This document shows positions 21,820 to 32,450 of a stretch of 54,565 nt of DNA, piece by piece. The stretch's first letter is position 1. Every line of letters begins with the position of its first letter. Origin of the DNA: Bacteroidales bacterium (GTDB taxonomy: Bacteria; Bacteroidota; Bacteroidia; Bacteroidales; VadinHA17); the NCBI GenBank assembly GCA_021157415.1, contig JAGGWN010000090.1, forward strand, positions 1 to 54,565, in the 5' to 3' direction. The notes below the pieces were generated by a model. The model ran no database searches, had not been told where the DNA came from, and saw only the letters and a list, made by a program, of their open reading frames with translations. The position numbers and the translations under genes are program-made.

Positions 21820-23772
21820 ATGAGACATCCACTGAAAAAAATATCTCTGATCATTTCACTCTCCGTATTTGGATGGCTTATGTCTCATGCAAACCCCTCG
21901 CAGATAGACAGTCTCTTACAAAAGGCAAGCACGGTCTCAGATTCGGGAAAAGTTATTCTTTATTCCGAAATCGCAAAAAGGTATATCGGCTCCTCTCTGT
22001 CCTCCAGTATGGAATATGCATTAAAAGCACTGTCACTGGCAGACAGTCTGGGGGATAAGCGCCTGATTGCAGAAGCATATAACCGTGTCGGGACCGTCTA
22101 TTATTACCTTAACAATTATGAAAAAGCTATTTTTTATATTATCCAGTCTCTAAAGATCAGAGAGAGCCTGGATGACCAGTCTGCAATAGCCTCCTCTTAC
22201 ACAAACCTGGCAGTAATATATATGGCTCTCCAGGAATACAATAAAGCCATCTATTACAATACAAAATCCATAGAGCTGAAAAAGAAATTGGGAACTACAA
22301 AAAATCTCGGCATCAACTACAATAATATGATGATTTTTTATGAGAAGCTAAAAGACTGGACCAATGCCCTGTACTGGGGATACAAGACCCTGGATTTTGA
22401 TAAGAACGTGAAAGATTATCAGTCTGTTGCCGATGCTTATCTGAACATAGGGGAGATTTACCACAAGCAAAAAGATTACGACCGGGCAATGAAAAATTAT
22501 CAGAAAGCCCTTACAACTTCCGATACGCTAAAAAACACTTTTACTACAACGCTCTTATTAAACAACCTAATACAACTGTTTTTGGATCTTCATGAACCGG
22601 CCAAAGCTTATGACCACCTTCAAAAGGAAGAAGAGATACTGAAGAACTATTACAATCCCAGGATATTACAGGGTTTTTACAAGAATTTATCCGCGTATTA
22701 CAAAAGTCTCCATGATTACGGAAACGCTTATAAGTACCTGAAGATTGCAGCAGCCTTCCAGGATACCAGCCGGGAAAATAATGCCTATGATAAGATCCTG
22801 GGCCTGCAAAAAAGTTATGACTCCCAGAATATGGAATATCAGATCCGTACGCTAAAGCAAAATCAACTGATCAAACAATTAAAACTGAAAAAGGGACAAG
22901 TCAGATTAATAGAATTTGGTATTTTCTCGGTCCTTTTGTTTATCCTGGTCCTGTTTATATCCTGGTCTTTCCGCAGGCTTAAAGGATTAAAAAACGAACT
23001 TGCTCTCCGTAACCAATCCCTGGAAAAAGCCAATATCGAGCTGTTCGAAACCGAAAAAGAACTTCAATCACTAAACCAAACCAAAGACAAATTCTTTTCC
23101 ATCATAGCCCACGATCTGATCAACCCTTTTCAACCCATACTGGGCTTATCGGAACTCCTGGTTACCGACCTGGACCGGCTGTCGGAGGAAGACATTAAAA
23201 AATATGCTTCCCTGATCAAAGACTCAGCCATGCGGTTGTTTAACCTGCTGAGCAATTTATTGAAATGGACACAGGCACAAACCGGCAGACTAAGCTATGA
23301 TCCTGAAAACATATCCCTTTTTGAACTTGTCAATGAAATTCTCTCTTTTTACAAGGAAAATGCACGGCTCAAGAGCATTCATTTAATGAATCATATTGAT
23401 AAGGATATTCTGGTTTATGCAGACAGGGAGCTGGTAAGTGCCATCATCCGGAACCTGGTCAGTAATGCCATAAAGTTTACCAATATGAATGGATATGTCA
23501 AAATTGACGCCATAGAAAGAACTGATTTTGTCGAGGTGTCTGTAGAAGATAACGGAACCGGGATTGATTCTGTAAGGTTGGAAAAAATATTCTCTCTTGA
23601 GTCGGCTATTTCCACCCGGGGAACACAAAATGAGGAAGGAACCGGACTGGGACTTATCCTTTGCAAGGAATTCGTAGAAAGAAACGGGGGCAAAATCCAT
23701 GTAACCAGCCGGAAAGGAAAAGGAACGGTATTCTATTTCACTTTACCCAGAACCAACGAGAGTAGAAAATGA
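21820..23772 (+). CDS. TPR-containing sensor histidine kinase (first of a tandem pair)
   Basis: A 650-residue membrane sensor kinase. A signal peptide (about 1-24) exports an all-helical region (about 30-330) with repeated TPR motifs such as AEAYNRVGTVYYYLNNYEKA. One transmembrane helix (about 362-383) leads to a coiled coil and a HisKA domain whose phosphoacceptor is His431 in IIAHDLINPF. The ATPase domain has the N box NLVSNAIKF, DNGTGID and GTGLGL, so it looks active. The TPR domain would sense a periplasmic peptide or protein. No response regulator is adjacent. Its TGA overlaps the ATG of a second kinase of identical layout. Both sit between xseA and xseB. Confidence 0.9.
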   Translation: MRHPLKKISLIISLSVFGWLMSHANPSQIDSLLQKASTVSDSGKVILYSEIAKRYIGSSLSSSMEYALKALSLADSLGDKRLIAEAYNRVGTVYYYLNNYEKAIFYIIQSLKIRESLDDQSAIASSYTNLAVIYMALQEYNKAIYYNTKSIELKKKLGTTKNLGINYNNMMIFYEKLKDWTNALYWGYKTLDFDKNVKDYQSVADAYLNIGEIYHKQKDYDRAMKNYQKALTTSDTLKNTFTTTLLLNNLIQLFLDLHEPAKAYDHLQKEEEILKNYYNPRILQGFYKNLSAYYKSLHDYGNAYKYLKIAAAFQDTSRENNAYDKILGLQKSYDSQNMEYQIRTLKQNQLIKQLKLKKGQVRLIEFGIFSVLLFILVLFISWSFRRLKGLKNELALRNQSLEKANIELFETEKELQSLNQTKDKFFSIIAHDLINPFQPILGLSELLVTDLDRLSEEDIKKYASLIKDSAMRLFNLLSNLLKWTQAQTGRLSYDPENISLFELVNEILSFYKENARLKSIHLMNHIDKDILVYADRELVSAIIRNLVSNAIKFTNMNGYVKIDAIERTDFVEVSVEDNGTGIDSVRLEKIFSLESAISTRGTQNEEGTGLGLILCKEFVERNGGKIHVTSRKGKGTVFYFTLPRTNESRK

Positions 23773-25718
23773 GGAATATTGCTGTCATCGTCTTGCTAAT
23801 AACATTGACCATTTACTCATCAGTTGGTTACGGACAGACGCATGTCATTGACAGCCTGAAAAAAGAACTCGGCCACAATCTTTCAGACAAGGAAAAGTCT
23901 CATCTGGCCAACCTTCTGGCCATTCAATATATGGAACAAAACAATATGCTGCAAAGTTTACAATATGCATATATATCACTTGAATTTGCTACCCGGGCCC
24001 ATGATATAGAGACCATGAGCAATGCGTATCTAAGGATAGGTAACATTTACTCATTTGCAAACATCCATAGCACAGCTCTTGAATATTACCTGAAAAGCAA
24101 AAACATTCTGAAAGATACGGCCCTCGCTGATAACCTGGGCAGTACTTACCTGTTTCTCGGCCAAACCTATAACATGCTACAACAATATGACTCCGCCAGA
24201 TATTATCTGGACCTTTCCCGGAAATATATGTCAAGATTAAAAAAGAAAAAATGGGAAAATATTTTGCTGATTCTTACGGGAGACCTTGAAAAAAATACTA
24301 AAAATCATACTGCTGCTCTGGATGATTATAATAAATCGCTTTCCAGGTTTCAGGAAGCAAAGGATACTTCAGGGATGATTAAAACCTCGTTCTATATTGC
24401 GGATCTTTGGGAGGAAACAGAAAACTATCAGAAGGAACAAGAAGTACTTCAAAGCGTCATGCAACTTGCTAAACTTGCTCACAAGCAGCATAGTACATGC
24501 AAATCAATGATAAAGCTGGCTCACTGTTATCTCAAAACAGGAAATACGGACAGAGTCATATCTCTGCTTACAAAAGGAGATTCTTGTGCTTCGGCCCTGG
24601 ATGAAATAAAATTAAAGAAAGAAGTCTTTTTGACGTGGTCCGAGTATTATAATCAAACACACAACCCCCGGAAAGCTTACCAAAACTTCAACACATACCT
24701 GGTAACAAAAGATTCTATACAAACCCAGTACTTCGAACTGGTAAAAAATCTTTTGGATATCAGGTACAATACCGAATCCAAAATCAAAGAACTGGATTAT
24801 TTAAAAAGGAATAACGAAATTCAAGATTTGCATTACCAAAAAAACATTTTTTATAAACACATCATTGTGGGGCTGTTTTTCTTTTTCCTCCTTACTCTGA
24901 TCATATTGTTCCTGATATATATGATCAGGCGACGATCACATAGTCAATTACTTGAAACCAACAAAAAACTGGAAAAGATCAATACGGAGCTTAAAAAGAG
25001 AAAAGAAAAACAACAATTTGAAAATCAGGTCAGGAATAAACTTTTTATGATCCTGGCACATGATCTGATCAATCCATTTAATGCACTCCTTGGTTTTGCG
25101 GGATTGCTTTCGGAAGAAATGCAGGAATACAGCAGAAAAGAAATAAAGCGTCACAGTGAATTCATTTACCAATCATCCAAACAACTTCATTTTCTTCTTG
25201 AAAATCTGCTTCAATGGGCCAGGATTCAGACCGGACGATTCAAGTTTATGCCTTCCTATGTTGAAGTAAACAAAATCCTTCGCGATGTTACTGACAGCCA
25301 CAAGTTCATGGCTGACAAAAAGAAAATCATGTTATCGGTTGACACTGCAGATAATATGATCGTATATGCAGACGATACGATGATTACCGTTATCCTTCAG
25401 AATCTGATACATAATGCCATCAAATATACCGGAGAGGGAGGCTCTGTCAAAATAAAAGGCACGCTGAAAAAAGACAGGGTAACTATCTCGGTATGTGATA
25501 CCGGATGCGGTATTTCAAAAGAAGAAATTGATAAACTCTTTATGCTGGAACACCACTTCACCAGAAAAGGAACTTCCGGCGAGCAAGGTACCGGATTGGG
25601 GCTAATTATCTGTAAAGAACTATTGGCGCTTCATCACAGCACATTAGAGGTGGAAAGTAACCTGGATAAGGGAAGCTGCTTCAGCTTTTCATTAATGCAA
25701 AAAAAAGATAAAATCTAA
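23769..25718 (+). CDS. TPR-containing sensor histidine kinase (second of a tandem pair)
   Basis: A 649-residue paralogue of the preceding kinase, starting at an ATGA overlap. It has the same parts in the same places: signal peptide (about 1-22), periplasmic TPR-like helices (about 30-340), a transmembrane helix (about 365-386), a coiled coil, and HisKA with His431 in ILAHDLINPF. The ATPase domain keeps NLIHNAIKY, DTGCGIS and GTGLGL. The phosphoacceptor falls at exactly residue 431 in both proteins although the periplasmic halves have diverged, which points to duplication with different ligands. xseB begins 4 bp after its stop. The cognate regulator is not in the window. Confidence 0.9.
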   Translation: MRNIAVIVLLITLTIYSSVGYGQTHVIDSLKKELGHNLSDKEKSHLANLLAIQYMEQNNMLQSLQYAYISLEFATRAHDIETMSNAYLRIGNIYSFANIHSTALEYYLKSKNILKDTALADNLGSTYLFLGQTYNMLQQYDSARYYLDLSRKYMSRLKKKKWENILLILTGDLEKNTKNHTAALDDYNKSLSRFQEAKDTSGMIKTSFYIADLWEETENYQKEQEVLQSVMQLAKLAHKQHSTCKSMIKLAHCYLKTGNTDRVISLLTKGDSCASALDEIKLKKEVFLTWSEYYNQTHNPRKAYQNFNTYLVTKDSIQTQYFELVKNLLDIRYNTESKIKELDYLKRNNEIQDLHYQKNIFYKHIIVGLFFFFLLTLIILFLIYMIRRRSHSQLLETNKKLEKINTELKKRKEKQQFENQVRNKLFMILAHDLINPFNALLGFAGLLSEEMQEYSRKEIKRHSEFIYQSSKQLHFLLENLLQWARIQTGRFKFMPSYVEVNKILRDVTDSHKFMADKKKIMLSVDTADNMIVYADDTMITVILQNLIHNAIKYTGEGGSVKIKGTLKKDRVTISVCDTGCGISKEEIDKLFMLEHHFTRKGTSGEQGTGLGLIICKELLALHHSTLEVESNLDKGSCFSFSLMQKKDKI

Positions 25719-25940: not shown

Positions 25941-27809
25941 TTAATCTTTTGGTTTTTTCAGTTTATGCGGCTGGATCATATGCTCCGGCGCAAGTAGTTC
26001 ATCCAGTTCCTCCTTGGATAGAAGCTTTTTCTCCAGCACCAATTCATAAACCCCCTTATTCGTCTCTGCAGCCTCTTTGGCCAGCATAGAAGATGTTTCA
26101 TATCCCAATACGGGGTTCAGTGCTGTCACCAGACCAATACTGTTTTGCACCATCTCACGGCAATGTTCTTTATTGGCTGTTATCCCTTCAATACAGCGAA
26201 CCCGCAAGGTTTTCATGCCATTTTTCAACATTTCAAGAGATTCAAAAAGACTCTGAACAATGACCGGTTCCATAACGTTTAGTTCAAGTTGTCCTGCTTC
26301 CCCGGCCAGACTGACAGTAAGATCATTACCGATTACTTTAAAAGCAATCTGGTTGACTACCTCGGGAATGACCGGATTAACTTTCCCCGGCATAATGGAT
26401 GATCCCGGTTGCATGGCCGGCAAGTTGATCTCATTCAGACCCGCCCGCGGACCTGAAGAAAGTAAACGCAAATCGTTGGATATCTTAGACAGCTTAATAG
26501 CAAGTCTTTTCAGGGCTGAAGAATACATGATAAAAGCCCCGGTGTCCTGGGTCGCCTCCACCAGGTTTTTTGCAGTCTTAACCTCCAGCCCGGTAATCTG
26601 ACGAAGATATTTGACAACCACTGTTGCATAATCCGGGTCAGCATTGATCCCTGTGCCTATGGCTGTCCCTCCCATATTGATTTCCAGAAACAGATCCACA
26701 TTCTCATTCAGCCGCTGTATCTCTTCTTCCAGGGTAGCAGCATAAGCCTCAAAAGACTGCCCCAGGGTCATAGGAACAGCATCCTGTAACTGTGTCCTGC
26801 CCATTTTAATCACCTGAGAAAATTCTTCAGCTTTCTTACGAAACGCTTGCGCCAACTCCTCGAGAACAATAATCAGGCTTTGGTTGCTATAAATCAATGC
26901 CAGCTTTACAGCAGTGGGATATGCATCATTCGTGGATTGCGACAGATTTACATGGTTGTTCGGATGACAATACTGATACTCCCCTTTTTCATAACCCATA
27001 ATCTCCAGTGCCCTATTGGCAATAACTTCATTTGCATTCATGTTGGTAGAAGTCCCGGCACCTCCCTGAATCATGTCCACAACAAAATACTGATGATATT
27101 TTCCCTTGATAATCTCGCGACATGCCTGAACAATGGCTTTATGAACCGGCTCTTCCAGAAGCCCCAGCTCAAAATTGGCTTCGGCAGCTGCCAACTTCAC
27201 CATGGCTAACGACTCAATCAATACAGGATAAAAACTTAACGTCACCCCCGTAATATTGAAATTCTCCATTGCCCTTAAAGTCTGCACCCCAAAATAACTC
27301 TCATAGGGCACATCCCGATCTCCCAGAAGATCATGCTCTCTCCTTTTCTTACCGGACACATACTGTGCAGCAGCATGCATGATCCGGGCATTGGAATATT
27401 TCATCCTTCGCGATATAACGCGTATGATATTGGAAAAGATTTTAATAGCTGTTTTTCCATGTTCAAAGAAATAATCTCGGCCAAGGATCAACACCTCGGA
27501 ATCTTCGATAGCACGCGCCGATGTCGAATGAACACTATCGCCGGCAAGAGATCCCTCTCCCAGAAAATCCCCGCTCTGGAAAAAGACAAGTTTCTTTTCC
27601 TGACCATTCGTGAGAAACTTAAACAACTCTACCTCACCGGAATAAATTATGAATATGTTTTCCCGGGGGGCATTCTCCCTGAACAGGTATTCTCCTTCCT
27701 TATATTTACGGGTTGTCAGTTCATCTGCTATAATAGTAAGCTCTTTATCATTTAACCCTCTGAAAAGTTCTATGGTCCTGATAAATTTCCTGATCTCCTG
27801 TTTATTCAT
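25941..27809 (-). CDS. aspA: Aspartate ammonia-lyase fused to an N-terminal cyclic-nucleotide-binding-like domain
   Basis: It deaminates L-aspartate to fumarate and ammonia. Of 622 residues, about 157-622 is a complete aspartase/fumarase-superfamily enzyme: GTSTNMNANEVIANRALE, HPNNHVNLSQSTNDAYPTA and the catalytic-loop signature GSSIMPGKVNP are all present. Residues about 10-135 form a CRP-type beta-barrel (LFRGLNDKELTIIADEL, FIIYSGEVELF, FFQSGDFLGEGSL). In the phosphate-binding cassette the usual GELALL...RxA pattern reads GEGSLAGDSVHSTSA, so the arginine that contacts the cyclic phosphate is replaced by His94. The domain may bind another ligand or none. Bacteroidota aspartases with this fusion exist to my knowledge. 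The gene is convergent with xseB. Confidence 0.92.
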   Translation of the reverse strand: MNKQEIRKFIRTIELFRGLNDKELTIIADELTTRKYKEGEYLFRENAPRENIFIIYSGEVELFKFLTNGQEKKLVFFQSGDFLGEGSLAGDSVHSTSARAIEDSEVLILGRDYFFEHGKTAIKIFSNIIRVISRRMKYSNARIMHAAAQYVSGKKRREHDLLGDRDVPYESYFGVQTLRAMENFNITGVTLSFYPVLIESLAMVKLAAAEANFELGLLEEPVHKAIVQACREIIKGKYHQYFVVDMIQGGAGTSTNMNANEVIANRALEIMGYEKGEYQYCHPNNHVNLSQSTNDAYPTAVKLALIYSNQSLIIVLEELAQAFRKKAEEFSQVIKMGRTQLQDAVPMTLGQSFEAYAATLEEEIQRLNENVDLFLEINMGGTAIGTGINADPDYATVVVKYLRQITGLEVKTAKNLVEATQDTGAFIMYSSALKRLAIKLSKISNDLRLLSSGPRAGLNEINLPAMQPGSSIMPGKVNPVIPEVVNQIAFKVIGNDLTVSLAGEAGQLELNVMEPVIVQSLFESLEMLKNGMKTLRVRCIEGITANKEHCREMVQNSIGLVTALNPVLGYETSSMLAKEAAETNKGVYELVLEKKLLSKEELDELLAPEHMIQPHKLKKPKD

Positions 27810-27952: not shown

Positions 27953-28804
27953 TTAAGTTCCCATATGTTTCATATGATAGGTTACAAGGCCTTTCAAGGG
28001 ATAACGAACAATTTTTTCAATTTCCATACTCCTTTTTCGTGCTGTGGTTTTTAACATATCCTGAAAATAATAGGCAACCGACCCGGTAGCTCTTATCTTA
28101 TCCTCAGTGTTGGATAACAACGGTTTTATATGTATATCAAACAGTTTTCCAAATTCAGACTCCAAAATGGCATGTATGGTTTTATCTGTTTGATATTTCC
28201 ATAAAAAAGGAGCAAACTCCGCCAGGTAATAATTGGGTTTACCTTTCAGATATATTTCATTCTTCAGTATATGAACATTGATTTTATATTGCTTTTCAAA
28301 CGCCATACTCACCTGCGGAGTTAACTCTCTGTCAAGCCAGGCCTTCACAAGTCGTAAGCCCAATGCGGCTCCGCTACCATGATCCCCAAGTAAGTAACCC
28401 AACGGGAGATTTCTTTTTATCAGAAGTTCTCCGTTCCACAATCCCGCATTTGTTCCCGTCCCCAGGATTAATGCCACTCCCCGTTCCCTGTCAAACAAGG
28501 ACCTGGCAGCACCCATCAGATCATCCGCCACGGTTATTTTTGCCGACGGAAATATTTCCAGCAGTACTTTCTTAACCATGTTTCTGTGGTGATCCACATC
28601 ACACCCTGCCCCATAATAATATATGCGCTCCACCTCCGCTGTTACTCCTTTCCTATTTAACCATCCGGTCATTTCCCTGCTCCAGCTTACCTGTTGATCA
28701 AAATATGGATTGTAACCGGCAGTCCTGAACAATACAATAGTTCCAGAATCCCTCACCAGTGCCCATTCCGTCTTGGTTGATCCGCTGTCGGCTATTAGTA
28801 TCAT
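27953..28804 (-). CDS. BadF/BadG/BcrA-type ATPase, N-acetylglucosamine kinase-like
   Basis: A 283-residue sugar kinase-like protein of the ASKHA fold. The N-terminal phosphate-1 motif is MILIADSGSTKTEWALV, the second is ALILGTGTNAGLW, and LGDHGSGAALGLRLVKAW is the conserved family signature shared with GlcNAc kinases. I start it at ATG 28804, which places the phosphate motif at the N-terminus; the in-frame ATG at 28852 adds 16 unrelated residues. A likely role is phosphorylating GlcNAc or a related amino sugar released in cell-wall recycling, but specificity cannot be read. Its neighbours, the aspartase and a large hybrid kinase, give no functional hint. Confidence 0.85.
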   Translation of the reverse strand: MILIADSGSTKTEWALVRDSGTIVLFRTAGYNPYFDQQVSWSREMTGWLNRKGVTAEVERIYYYGAGCDVDHHRNMVKKVLLEIFPSAKITVADDLMGAARSLFDRERGVALILGTGTNAGLWNGELLIKRNLPLGYLLGDHGSGAALGLRLVKAWLDRELTPQVSMAFEKQYKINVHILKNEIYLKGKPNYYLAEFAPFLWKYQTDKTIHAILESEFGKLFDIHIKPLLSNTEDKIRATGSVAYYFQDMLKTTARKRSMEIEKIVRYPLKGLVTYHMKHMGT

Positions 28805-28885
28805 AAGGTCATAAATTATTTTTTTCCACCTGATTCTGTAATCTGATGTCAATTATATCACAAACCTCTGTATTGTCCGCCGAAA

Positions 28886-31800
28886 TCATTCTTTCCAATC
28901 CCCCATAAATTTTTCCAGCAACGTTATGAGTTTATGTGGCTGAATAGGTTTTGCTATATATCCATCACAACCAGCATCCAGCGCTTTTTTTCTGTCTTCA
29001 GACATTGCAAAAGCCGTCTGGGCAATCACCGTAATATCAGGATACATTTTCTTGAGTAACCGTGTAGCCTCATACCCATTCAATTCCGGCATTTGAATAT
29101 CCATAAGGACCACATCCACATTCTCATGAGTCTTTACTTTTTCCAGAACATCCAGGCCGTTCATGGCTCTGATAACAACGGCTTTTTTCACAGATAAAAT
29201 CGCCTTCAGATATTCGAAATTAGACTCGTTATCTTCGGCAATAAGCACCTTTTTTGTACTCCAGTCGGAAACAGATTTTTGTTCCTCTTCTGTTTCAGTC
29301 TTCTTTTCTACGATTCCCGGAATCTCAATATTCTCCTGTAACGGCAATACAAAATAAAACGTGGAACCTTTGCCTTCCTCTGACTCAACACTTATATCCC
29401 CCCCCATTAACTCAGCCAGATTCTTCGAAATCCACAAGCCAAGACCGGTCCCGCTAAATTCCCTAGTATAGGAATCATCCACCTGCCTGAAACGGTCGAA
29501 TATTACCTTCTGCTTATCCTCGGGAACACCTACACCTGTATCTTTAACAAAAAATTTAATGGTTTTCTTTTCTGTCAATGAATACCCGAATTCGACACTC
29601 CCTTTTTTTGTAAACTTAATCGCATTACCAAGTAAATTGGATAAAACCTGTTTCACCCTTATGGCATCAGCCACAATCCTGAACTCCTGATCGAAAGGTC
29701 TGGTTAACAACAAACGAACCTGGCCCTTATGCAGTGTTTTTTCCTTTTGAAAATAAACATAAAGCTCATCAAGCAATTCATTAAGATCAAAACTGTGAGA
29801 AGCAATACGGATATGTTTGGCTTCAATCTTGGCCACATCTATGATGTCGTCTATTAACTTCAGGAGGGACTGACTGCTGAGATTGATCAAAGAAAAGTAC
29901 TCCTCTTTCTGTTTTTCCTCTAACTGGTCCGACTGAAGGATATTCGCAAAACCAATGATCGCATTCAAGGGAGTACGGATTTCATGAGACATATTGGCCA
30001 GAAAAGCTGTTTTTAACCGATCAGATTCTTCGGCTCTCTCTTTGGCCTTCGTCAATTCAAGTTCGGCCTTTTTGCGCTCCGTAATATCCTCTTTTATCGC
30101 TACATAATAAACAATCTCACCTTTTTCATTTTTAATGCCGGATATGGATGCCAGTTCCCAAAATAGTTCTCCGTTTTTTTTCTTGTTTTCAAATTCCCCT
30201 CTCCATTCATTTCCTTGTGTAATGGTGTGCCACAAGGTCTTGTAAAAAGAATCAGGTAAGTTTCCTGATTTAAGGATCCTGGGGTTTGACCCTATCGCTT
30301 CTTCTGGAGTATATCCCGTAACCTCCGTAAATTTTGGATTGACATACTCAATATTTCCTTTGCGATCCGTAATCACGACAGAGGCAGGAGAGTGATCAAC
30401 AGCACTGGATAATACCTTTAACTGCTTCTCATATTTTATACGTTCACTGAGATCCGTGATCGTTACCAGTACCAAATCCCATGTCATCTCATGCCCCGGG
30501 ACCAACACCCATTTAATAATTGCATTAATATTCACGTCCGAGGTACTTGCTTCTACCACGGTTTCAAAAACATTCTTCCCTTCCCAAAAAGCTATACATA
30601 CATCAATAAAAATAGCCACGAAGAGATTATTTATGTTCTCCGTCAGCTTTTGTTGCAAATCTTTTATACTGGGAACTCCGAAAAATTTTAATGTTTCATT
30701 ATTGCAATCCAGCAAAACAATTTGTCGGAGTAGGTCCTCGATAACCTCCCGATTTTCTTCCAAATACACACGCAGATCTGTTATTCCCTGCTTATGGATA
30801 TTTTTCAGCGATTCTTTTACCCCGGAATAATCATGGCTGAACAACGGGATGGGAGAATACTCAAGAATGGTCCGATATTTCAGTTCCCTTTCATGCACTT
30901 CGCGCTCTTTCCTTTTTTCTTCTGTTATATCTCTCACGAACAACCAAAACCCCTCCTTCTCTCCCTCTGCATTGTAACGCAGAAACGCCTGTACGGCAGT
31001 CATAACAACATATCCATCCTTTGTAATAAACTTTTTTTCATACTTCTGCGTTAGCCCGGTCGGCCACAGTTTTTCTAACAAAGTGTACTCCTCATCAGAA
31101 CGCCAGGCAGAAGAGGTCATTTCCCAATAATTTACCTTACTCAGTTCCTTTTTATTATAACGGGTCAATCTCAGAAAAGAAGAATTACACTCAATAAAAC
31201 AACCTGACCGGTCTATGGAAATGGCCCCCTCATGCATGTTTTCATGAAGGTTTCTGTATTTCTTTTCCGATGTCTCTATGATTTTTAGCATCTTGTTCTT
31301 TTCCGTCACATCCCTGAACCAAAGGATGATACTGTCCGGTGTATGGTCAACCCTTTGAACAACTACGTCAAAAGAGGCATGCTCTCCATTGCGCAATGTA
31401 AACTCCCGGGCAAGCCCGTTAAAATCATTTTCCTGATCGGACAAATGCATTTTTTCGATTAACCCGGATTCTCTAAATATTGGAAACTCATCTATGATCC
31501 TGCCTTCCAGTTCTTGTTTTTTCATCCCGAAGAGCCTGAATATCATCCTGTTCACCCGGCATATTCTTCTATTCTCATCCAGCAAAATAATTCCATCAGG
31601 GGAGTATTCCAGAATATCATCAAGGAATTTGCGTGTTTTCCGGTTTTCAGCTTCTGCCCTTTTTTGTTCATCGATGGGAACCAGAAAATTTAAAGTAGCC
31701 GGTTCCCCTTCCCAGGATATCCTGAAACCCGTAATACGGAACCAAATGATCTTCCCTTCCCCGTTTTTCCCTCTGAATTGATAAGATGCTTTATCACTTT

Positions 31801-32398
31801 CCCCCCTGAGTCTTTTTACCTGATTTTGTTTTACCATCTCCACATCATCCGGATGGATAAAGTCCCATACATGACCCGTAAGTAACTCTTCTTCAGTAAT
31901 ATTATAGAATTCTTTTACCCTGGAGTTAAAATATTTCAAATGATCTCCCTGGGTAATAACAATCAACTCCTGGGCCGAATTGAATATCTTCATGGCCAGA
32001 TCCCTGTTCATATTGTCCCTTCTCTTCCTATTGCCGTTCTTGATCATGTACACAAGCAAGAGGATATCAAAAAGTTCATCCATGTTTTCAGGATTCACTC
32101 TTTTCACCCAATAAGATTTTTTTTCAGGAAAACGTTCAGATTCCTTATGATTGCTCAATAATAAAACGGGGATCTCCGTAATTGTCAGGAGGTCGTTAAT
32201 CTGGTTCTCATTATCGGCACAAACGATAGCAACATCAGGACTCTTCGAATTTACTGTTTGAATAAAAGCTTCTTGCTTTTCCAGTACTTCAATATTGAGG
32301 GAAAGTATATTTTTTTTCTCAGCCAGAAAGGCATGGACTTTCTCAGGAATTTCCGAATATGATTCAGTGATATAAAAAGCGATATATAAATCTTCCAT
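28886..32398 (-). CDS. Multi-PAS hybrid sensor histidine kinase with C-terminal receiver
   Basis: A 1170-residue soluble hybrid kinase with no signal peptide or membrane helix. Residues 1-120 look like a degenerate receiver: at the expected phosphoacceptor position after PDVAIV there is Cys60 rather than Asp. PAS domains follow at about 135-255, 260-375, 380-500 and 668-785. Between them (about 505-665) is a longer PAS-like module with FSHDYSGVKESL and ITDLRVYL. HisKA (FLANMSHEIRTPLNA) has His805. The ATPase domain has GNAIKF, DTGVGV and GTGLGL. The C-terminal receiver has Asp1100 in VLMDIQMPELNGY. I use ATG 32398; an in-frame TTG at 32407 is less likely. Promoter at 32451-32480. Signals and output partner are unknown. 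Confidence 0.92.
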   Translation of the reverse strand: MEDLYIAFYITESYSEIPEKVHAFLAEKKNILSLNIEVLEKQEAFIQTVNSKSPDVAIVCADNENQINDLLTITEIPVLLLSNHKESERFPEKKSYWVKRVNPENMDELFDILLLVYMIKNGNRKRRDNMNRDLAMKIFNSAQELIVITQGDHLKYFNSRVKEFYNITEEELLTGHVWDFIHPDDVEMVKQNQVKRLRGESDKASYQFRGKNGEGKIIWFRITGFRISWEGEPATLNFLVPIDEQKRAEAENRKTRKFLDDILEYSPDGIILLDENRRICRVNRMIFRLFGMKKQELEGRIIDEFPIFRESGLIEKMHLSDQENDFNGLAREFTLRNGEHASFDVVVQRVDHTPDSIILWFRDVTEKNKMLKIIETSEKKYRNLHENMHEGAISIDRSGCFIECNSSFLRLTRYNKKELSKVNYWEMTSSAWRSDEEYTLLEKLWPTGLTQKYEKKFITKDGYVVMTAVQAFLRYNAEGEKEGFWLFVRDITEEKRKEREVHERELKYRTILEYSPIPLFSHDYSGVKESLKNIHKQGITDLRVYLEENREVIEDLLRQIVLLDCNNETLKFFGVPSIKDLQQKLTENINNLFVAIFIDVCIAFWEGKNVFETVVEASTSDVNINAIIKWVLVPGHEMTWDLVLVTITDLSERIKYEKQLKVLSSAVDHSPASVVITDRKGNIEYVNPKFTEVTGYTPEEAIGSNPRILKSGNLPDSFYKTLWHTITQGNEWRGEFENKKKNGELFWELASISGIKNEKGEIVYYVAIKEDITERKKAELELTKAKERAEESDRLKTAFLANMSHEIRTPLNAIIGFANILQSDQLEEKQKEEYFSLINLSSQSLLKLIDDIIDVAKIEAKHIRIASHSFDLNELLDELYVYFQKEKTLHKGQVRLLLTRPFDQEFRIVADAIRVKQVLSNLLGNAIKFTKKGSVEFGYSLTEKKTIKFFVKDTGVGVPEDKQKVIFDRFRQVDDSYTREFSGTGLGLWISKNLAELMGGDISVESEEGKGSTFYFVLPLQENIEIPGIVEKKTETEEEQKSVSDWSTKKVLIAEDNESNFEYLKAILSVKKAVVIRAMNGLDVLEKVKTHENVDVVLMDIQMPELNGYEATRLLKKMYPDITVIAQTAFAMSEDRKKALDAGCDGYIAKPIQPHKLITLLEKFMGDWKE

Positions 32399-32450
32399 TA
32401 TGCCCAAAAAATGTGAATTCCTGATTTATTTTTAAATCGGCAGTTGCAGA

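Follow-up and report, generated by a model that had tools for sequence, protein, structure and literature searches.

The gene on the minus strand at positions 25941 to 27809 of the window (the whole analysed stretch of 54,565 nucleotides, contig JAGGWN010000090.1 of a Bacteroidales bacterium) raises the question of what a CRP-like cyclic-nucleotide-binding (CNB) barrel does at the N-terminus of an aspartase, if a histidine stands where the phosphate-binding arginine is expected. The original prediction had regarded the gene as such a fusion, and this holds: within one open reading frame, the aspartase family TIGR00839 and the CNB family PF00027 both score above their cut-offs. The coordinates, the cassette, quoted there as GEGSLAGDSVHSTSA, and His94 are all correct in the translation of the minus-strand reading frame. 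The features discussed in the following are:

25941..27809, minus strand: whole gene, CNB-aspartase fusion of 622 amino acids plus stop (uninterrupted 622-codon open reading frame, profile matches)
27390..27809, minus strand: CNB (CRP-like) domain, residues 1-140 (PF00027, 71.6 bits; AlphaFold2 model; VIA-align to 3r6s)
27513..27560, minus strand: phosphate-binding cassette, residues 84-99, GEGSLAGDSVHSTSAR (translation, alignment to CRP)
27528..27530, minus strand: codon of His94, aligned with CRP Arg82 (His in 101 and Tyr in 3 of 104 proteins; mapping to CRP)
27555..27557, minus strand: codon of Glu85, counterpart of CRP Glu72 (104 of 104; mapping to CRP)
27663..27665, minus strand: codon of Arg49, a family-specific arginine in the loop preceding strand 51-57, candidate substitute charge (104 of 104)
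27405..27407, minus strand: codon of Arg135, counterpart of CRP Arg123 (104 of 104; mapping to CRP)
27357..27458, minus strand: predicted long C-helix, residues 118-151, running into the lyase (model of the CNB domain alone)
25959..27344, minus strand: aspartase domain, residues 156-617, with the GSSIMPGKVNP loop (TIGR00839, alignment to 6wng, Foldseek)

In the profile search of the protein, PF00027 (cNMP_binding) reaches 71.6 bits against a cut-off of 27.5 over residues 34-115, and Lyase_1 reaches 328.6 bits over residues 165-494. The NCBIfam model aspA (TIGR00839) covers residues 156-621 with positions 1-467 of its 468 and reaches 730.6 bits, its cut-off being 681.2, whereas the fumarase models all remain under their own cut-offs, among them that of class II fumarase (fumC_II) with 487.2 bits against 664.75. 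By this curated family score the lyase part is an aspartase, i.e., a predicted enzyme of that activity; its nearest solved relative in a Foldseek search is the aspartate ammonia-lyase 6wng, with 67% identity. The TIGR00839 aspartases of Elizabethkingia (6wng) and Bacillus YM55-1 (1j3u) share the whole catalytic domain including the GSSIMPGKVNP loop, but the solved aspartases matched start at the lyase and, unlike the fusion, possess no CNB part. The aspartase of E. coli reportedly interacts with the PII protein GlnB.

Concerning the N-terminal part, the modelling proposed in the original prediction yielded a CRP-like fold of beta-roll and C-helix: the AlphaFold2 model of residues 1-155 has a mean pLDDT of 87.1, shows a short helix in the cassette (85-88) as well as a long C-helix (118-151), and aligns to cAMP-bound GlxR (3r6s) with a VIA-align Z of 18.6 and an rmsd of 2.8 over 148 aligned residues. 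Other CRP, PKA, PKG, and FNR domains, ligand-bound and ligand-free alike, lie within about 2-3 Z units of 3r6s, such that no single structural relative stands out. The end of the C-helix is weak in the model of the CNB domain alone (mean pLDDT 58 at residues 141-150 and 51 at 151-155), and the full-length model, with a mean pLDDT of 79.2, has weak stretches that include the interdomain residues 137-152 (below 50). The alignments behind these models contained 49 of 65 fused rows (full length) and 32 (CNB domain only). At the end of the C-helix, Gln149 and Tyr150 are each found in 103 of 104 fused proteins.

These 104 distinct fused proteins comprise the query and the 103 that remained of 110 fused loci after removal of identical copies. 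The first loci came from a search with peptide patterns taken from the query and are biased to close relatives; the genome draws of the order and the phylum were made independently of that search, and both sources contribute to the 104. HMM and MAFFT alignments agree in placing CRP Gly71 at Gly84, Glu72 at Glu85, Arg82 at His94, Ser83 at Ser95, and Arg123 at Arg135, and the same alignment to E. coli CRP places Thr127 at Ser139 and Ser128 at Asn140. All of these CRP residues are taken here to be cAMP contacts, Glu72 presumably that of the ribose. The proposed replacement of the phosphate-binding arginine by His94 is thus confirmed by two alignment methods, and its conservation, which the original prediction had left to be checked, is high: at residue 94, 101 of the 104 proteins have His and 3 have Tyr, and in the alignment as made none has Arg or Lys (among the 64 relatives from the peptide-pattern search plus the query, His is found in 62 of 65 rows). 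Glu85 and Arg135 are present in all 104 proteins and Gly84 in 100. Of what characterizes a canonical cAMP or cGMP receptor, the Gly-Glu of the cassette is therefore retained and the phosphate-binding Arg is missing; among the classical contacts examined, only the latter is consistently replaced, by His.

With the CNB domains of CRP and GlxR and of PKA and PKG, the fusion shares the common fold, the cassette Gly, Glu, and Ser, and the C-helix Arg, while it differs from them in the histidine for the phosphate-binding arginine, in an added arginine (Arg49), and in the lack of a DNA-binding or kinase part. Arg49 is invariant (104/104); its counterpart is Gly in the apicomplexan PKG domain and uncharged in the apicomplexan CNB domains compared by eye. 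It is a candidate for replacing the lost phosphate-binding arginine. The eight positions corresponding to CRP contacts have a mean entropy of 0.53 bits as against 1.85 for the domain, a value that not one of 20,000 randomly chosen sets of positions matched or undercut; the variable exception is residue 139 (Ala 59, Ser 14, Thr 13, Ile 9, Val 7). A regulatory ligand pocket in the CNB domain is therefore likely, and the conserved pocket together with the conserved connecting stretch would fit an allosteric control of the lyase. Against a switch, the invariant Glu85, Arg49, and Arg135 could also form a structural salt-bridge network; the variability of residue 139 and the low confidence at the end of the C-helix count against it as well.

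Alternatively, the barrel could bind no ligand and serve as an assembly or protein-contact domain. A pure scaffold need not keep a ligand-contact set, however, and here this set ranks with the best-conserved portions of the domain. The precedent for this alternative is the family 2B encapsulin, which likewise carries the CNB fold on an unusual partner and with a divergent cassette, and whose insert is reported to bind no cyclic nucleotide and to have diverged in its site residues (PMC12407261). The family 2B encapsulin shell model (NF041163) is also the best NCBIfam match covering the CNB part, at 44 bits far under its cut-off of 400. The encapsulin inserts are, however, described there as the regions in which the shell proteins vary most (PMC12407261), in contrast to the conserved pocket of the aspartase.

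Some further weight for a scaffold comes from the other CNB proteins of the same order, of which 19 were compared (the best-scoring loci from relatives and from the own genome, not a random draw): 18 have no Arg at the equivalent place (11 Tyr, 3 His), and 17 lack the cassette Glu. Loss of the arginine alone is thus ordinary for the superfamily; yet whereas these proteins mostly lack the cassette Glu, the aspartase CNB domain retains it as well as the C-helix Arg. On the whole, a ligand-free barrel appears unlikely. The loci L174, L175, L177, L178, L180-L183, L185, and L083 are Bacteroidales CRP-like regulators with a cassette GYRALF or GYKALF, in which Tyr stands instead of Glu and the place of the Arg is taken by Tyr or His (Phe in L185); possibly these share some ligand that is not a cyclic nucleotide.

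A pocket turned into a nucleoside site has a parallel in the regulatory PKA subunit (PKA-R) of trypanosomes, in which the Arg is replaced and purine nucleosides, but not cAMP, are reported to be bound (PMC10959531). Loss of the Arg and retention of the ribose Glu are common to both. In the trypanosome cassette, however, an extra Glu two positions past the first (E311) is described there as decisive (PMC10959531), and at the corresponding residue 87 of the fused proteins Ser (55), Ala (34), Val (10), and others (5) are found, with Glu in none of the 104. The aspartase family therefore does not fit the trypanosome nucleoside type, and such a conversion is very improbable.

A different alternative, ordinary cyclic-nucleotide control, would have cAMP or cGMP bound with the phosphate held by His94, a relocated Arg49, and Arg135. 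The counterparts of the remaining CRP contacts Gly71, Glu72, Ser83, and Arg123 are kept, as this requires; against it, residue 94 is His or Tyr throughout. The own genome possesses two class III cyclases (L088 and L089, contig C108), presumably adenylate cyclases according to motifs in their sequences, with a C-terminal part that we take to resemble an HD phosphohydrolase domain. The five other CNB proteins of this genome found with PF00027 all lack the cassette Glu and Arg, such that the pocket of the aspartase is the most complete of the six; yet none of the six has a complete classical cassette, which leaves the receptor of the predicted adenylate cyclases unaccounted for.

Across the order, a class III cyclase (E 1e-10) occurs in 32 of 34 genomes with the fusion as against 56 of 114 others (Fisher test, 7e-7). 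Among aspartase-bearing genomes of the order the ratio is 32/34 with the fused gene to 1/14 with an unfused one, where one of the 14 (G101) has a partial match only (residues 271-619) of unsure class. In the phylum draw, the cyclase is found in 11 of 13 fused genomes (the own genome left out) as against 9 of 29 with an unfused aspartase of at least 50% identity, matches of 43-48% being excluded from the aspartase counts as possible fumarases. All 9 genomes reached through chosen loci, which are no random draw, also contain it.

A phylogeny-aware test used an rpoB tree built with FastTree from 140 of the order's 148 genomes. Of 16 independent pairs differing in the fusion, an average of 3.8 agreed, 1.0 went the opposite way, and 11.2 were uninformative (median p 0.375), in a test that cannot reach 0.05 with fewer than six informative pairs, as is true of most pairings here. 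The reverse test (12 pairs, 4.5 versus 1.1, median p 0.375) likewise had few informative pairs, and aspartase-bearing genomes alone gave 4 pairs with 1.9 versus 0.0. The pairs lean to an association of fusion and cyclase, and shared ancestry explains the raw association equally well. As proof of cAMP the linkage was therefore set aside: a strong raw association that is not significant in a test of low power neither proves nor refutes it. Four fused genomes (G090, G141, G343, G432) have no class III cyclase at E 1e-10, the only class sought, and nevertheless keep Arg49, Glu85, and His94. Adjacency of the two genes was also considered and rejected, as among 80 loci, of which 64 are fused, just 1 has a cyclase in its flanks (up to 5 kb on each side), which likewise argues against ordinary cyclic-nucleotide control. 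Taken together, this alternative is possible but doubtful. Among the matches listed, four fused genomes (G020, G009, G104, G073) have a cyclase within about 15 kb, a post hoc observation not counted as evidence.

Among the genes of 40 relatives, 16 reach at least 183 bits with the CNB profile. Each of these runs on into an aspartase (one of them is cut by a contig end), with no free-standing copy of this CNB type among them; the next CNB protein among the matches listed reaches at most 75 bits. In the comparison with the closest relative, the CNB domain has a dN/dS of 0.082, which speaks for purifying selection on it, and the lyase one of 0.046; these values come from one pair of seven, the other six being saturated at synonymous sites in both domains. 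A second aspartase of at least 50% identity was found in none of the 34 fused genomes of the order draw among the matches listed, so that a switch would affect all of the aspartase in the cell. In the phylum draw, 1 of 13 fused genomes (not counting the own genome) carries an unfused aspartase as well: contig C1 of G439 carries the fused gene at 626896-628764 and the unfused one at 368845-370218, a natural comparison.

The neighbourhood does not name a ligand. A conserved operon was considered and discarded, as no flanking gene cluster (open reading frames of at least 100 amino acids, up to 5 kb on each side) occurs in more than 8 of 64 loci; the lack of a conserved neighbour that would name a ligand, in these 64 loci and within 5 kb on each side, counts against a switch. 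In the window, two sensor histidine kinases lie downstream (21820-25718) and a large hybrid kinase upstream (28886-32407), all identified by eye, and related kinases flank the fusion gene in L001-L004. Directly upstream on the same, minus strand lies a BadF-type N-acetylglucosamine-kinase-like gene (27953-28852, by eye).

Records labelled Bacteroidales, Ignavibacteria, and relatives contain fused genes, as do MAGs with the labels Aminicenantes, Acidobacteria, Kapabacteria, Saprospiraceae, and Gammaproteobacteria. On the rpoB tree, no fewer than 23 changes are required to explain which genomes have the fusion, which implies its frequent loss or transfer. The lyase tree, by comparison, contains 101 of the 104 fused proteins, 29 unfused ones, and one fumarase (L097, L137, and L149 are absent because the start motif was not found in them), and needs four changes, three of which are forced by starred branches. 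After pruning of the divergent L078, of the contig-edge fragments L065 and L076, and of the fumarase, 100 fused rows stand on one side of a single branch and 27 unfused rows on the other, with a support of 29; the tree is thus compatible with a single origin apart from L078, without supporting it.

L078 (920-2821, in a MAG labelled Gammaproteobacteria) reaches 73.5 bits with the CNB profile as against at least 152.5 for the others and may be an independent CNB-aspartase fusion. Fused relatives of it were found in none of the 184 other genomes of the class draw (three unfused matches), and the 12 other genomes of its order gave no match at 1e-120. In its cassette EKDRYSLSG, an Arg could take the canonical place if the loop were one residue shorter; for this reason the absence of Arg at residue 94 is stated with reference to the alignment as made.

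The most plausible answer to the initial question, to be taken as tentative, is that the gene encodes the aspartase of the cell with a built-in ligand switch, the CNB pocket being of changed specificity. The conserved His for Arg points to an undescribed on/off control by another, or a differently held, small molecule. Trypanosome PKA-R, in which the arginine is replaced as well, offers a precedent for such a change. The ligand would be a small molecule that carries a sugar or comparable hydroxyl groups, probably resembling a nucleotide but not ordinary 3',5'-cAMP, held between Glu85, Ser95, Arg135, His94, and perhaps Arg49; its binding would shift the C-helix that enters the N-terminus of the lyase, and this shift would alter the turnover of aspartate to fumarate and ammonia. 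More speculative is a wider version, according to which the phosphate grip was relocated from the cassette (Arg to His) to the invariant Arg49 in a different loop and the pocket tuned to a new nucleotide-like ligand. Aspartase itself would then be switched directly by a metabolite or second-messenger-like signal that sets the supply of fumarate and ammonia, and this control would be widespread in Bacteroidota and Ignavibacteria.

What is widespread in any case is the CNB-aspartase fusion with its conserved loss of the phosphate-binding arginine. The original prediction had held such a switch to be undescribed, and searches of open-access full text listed no description of the fusion. CNB-regulated enzymes are a known kind, of which the fused aspartase would be a further case. 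Aspartase feeds fumarate respiration and releases ammonia. For E. coli, both the feeding of fumarate respiration and the freeing of ammonia by aspartase are described in a published study (PMC10936423). If the switch is real, a sensor built into aspartase would couple the flow of carbon, nitrogen, and electrons to a signal within the cell across large bacterial groups, and its CNB pocket would be a test case for the ligands that CNB domains recognise without the classical arginine.
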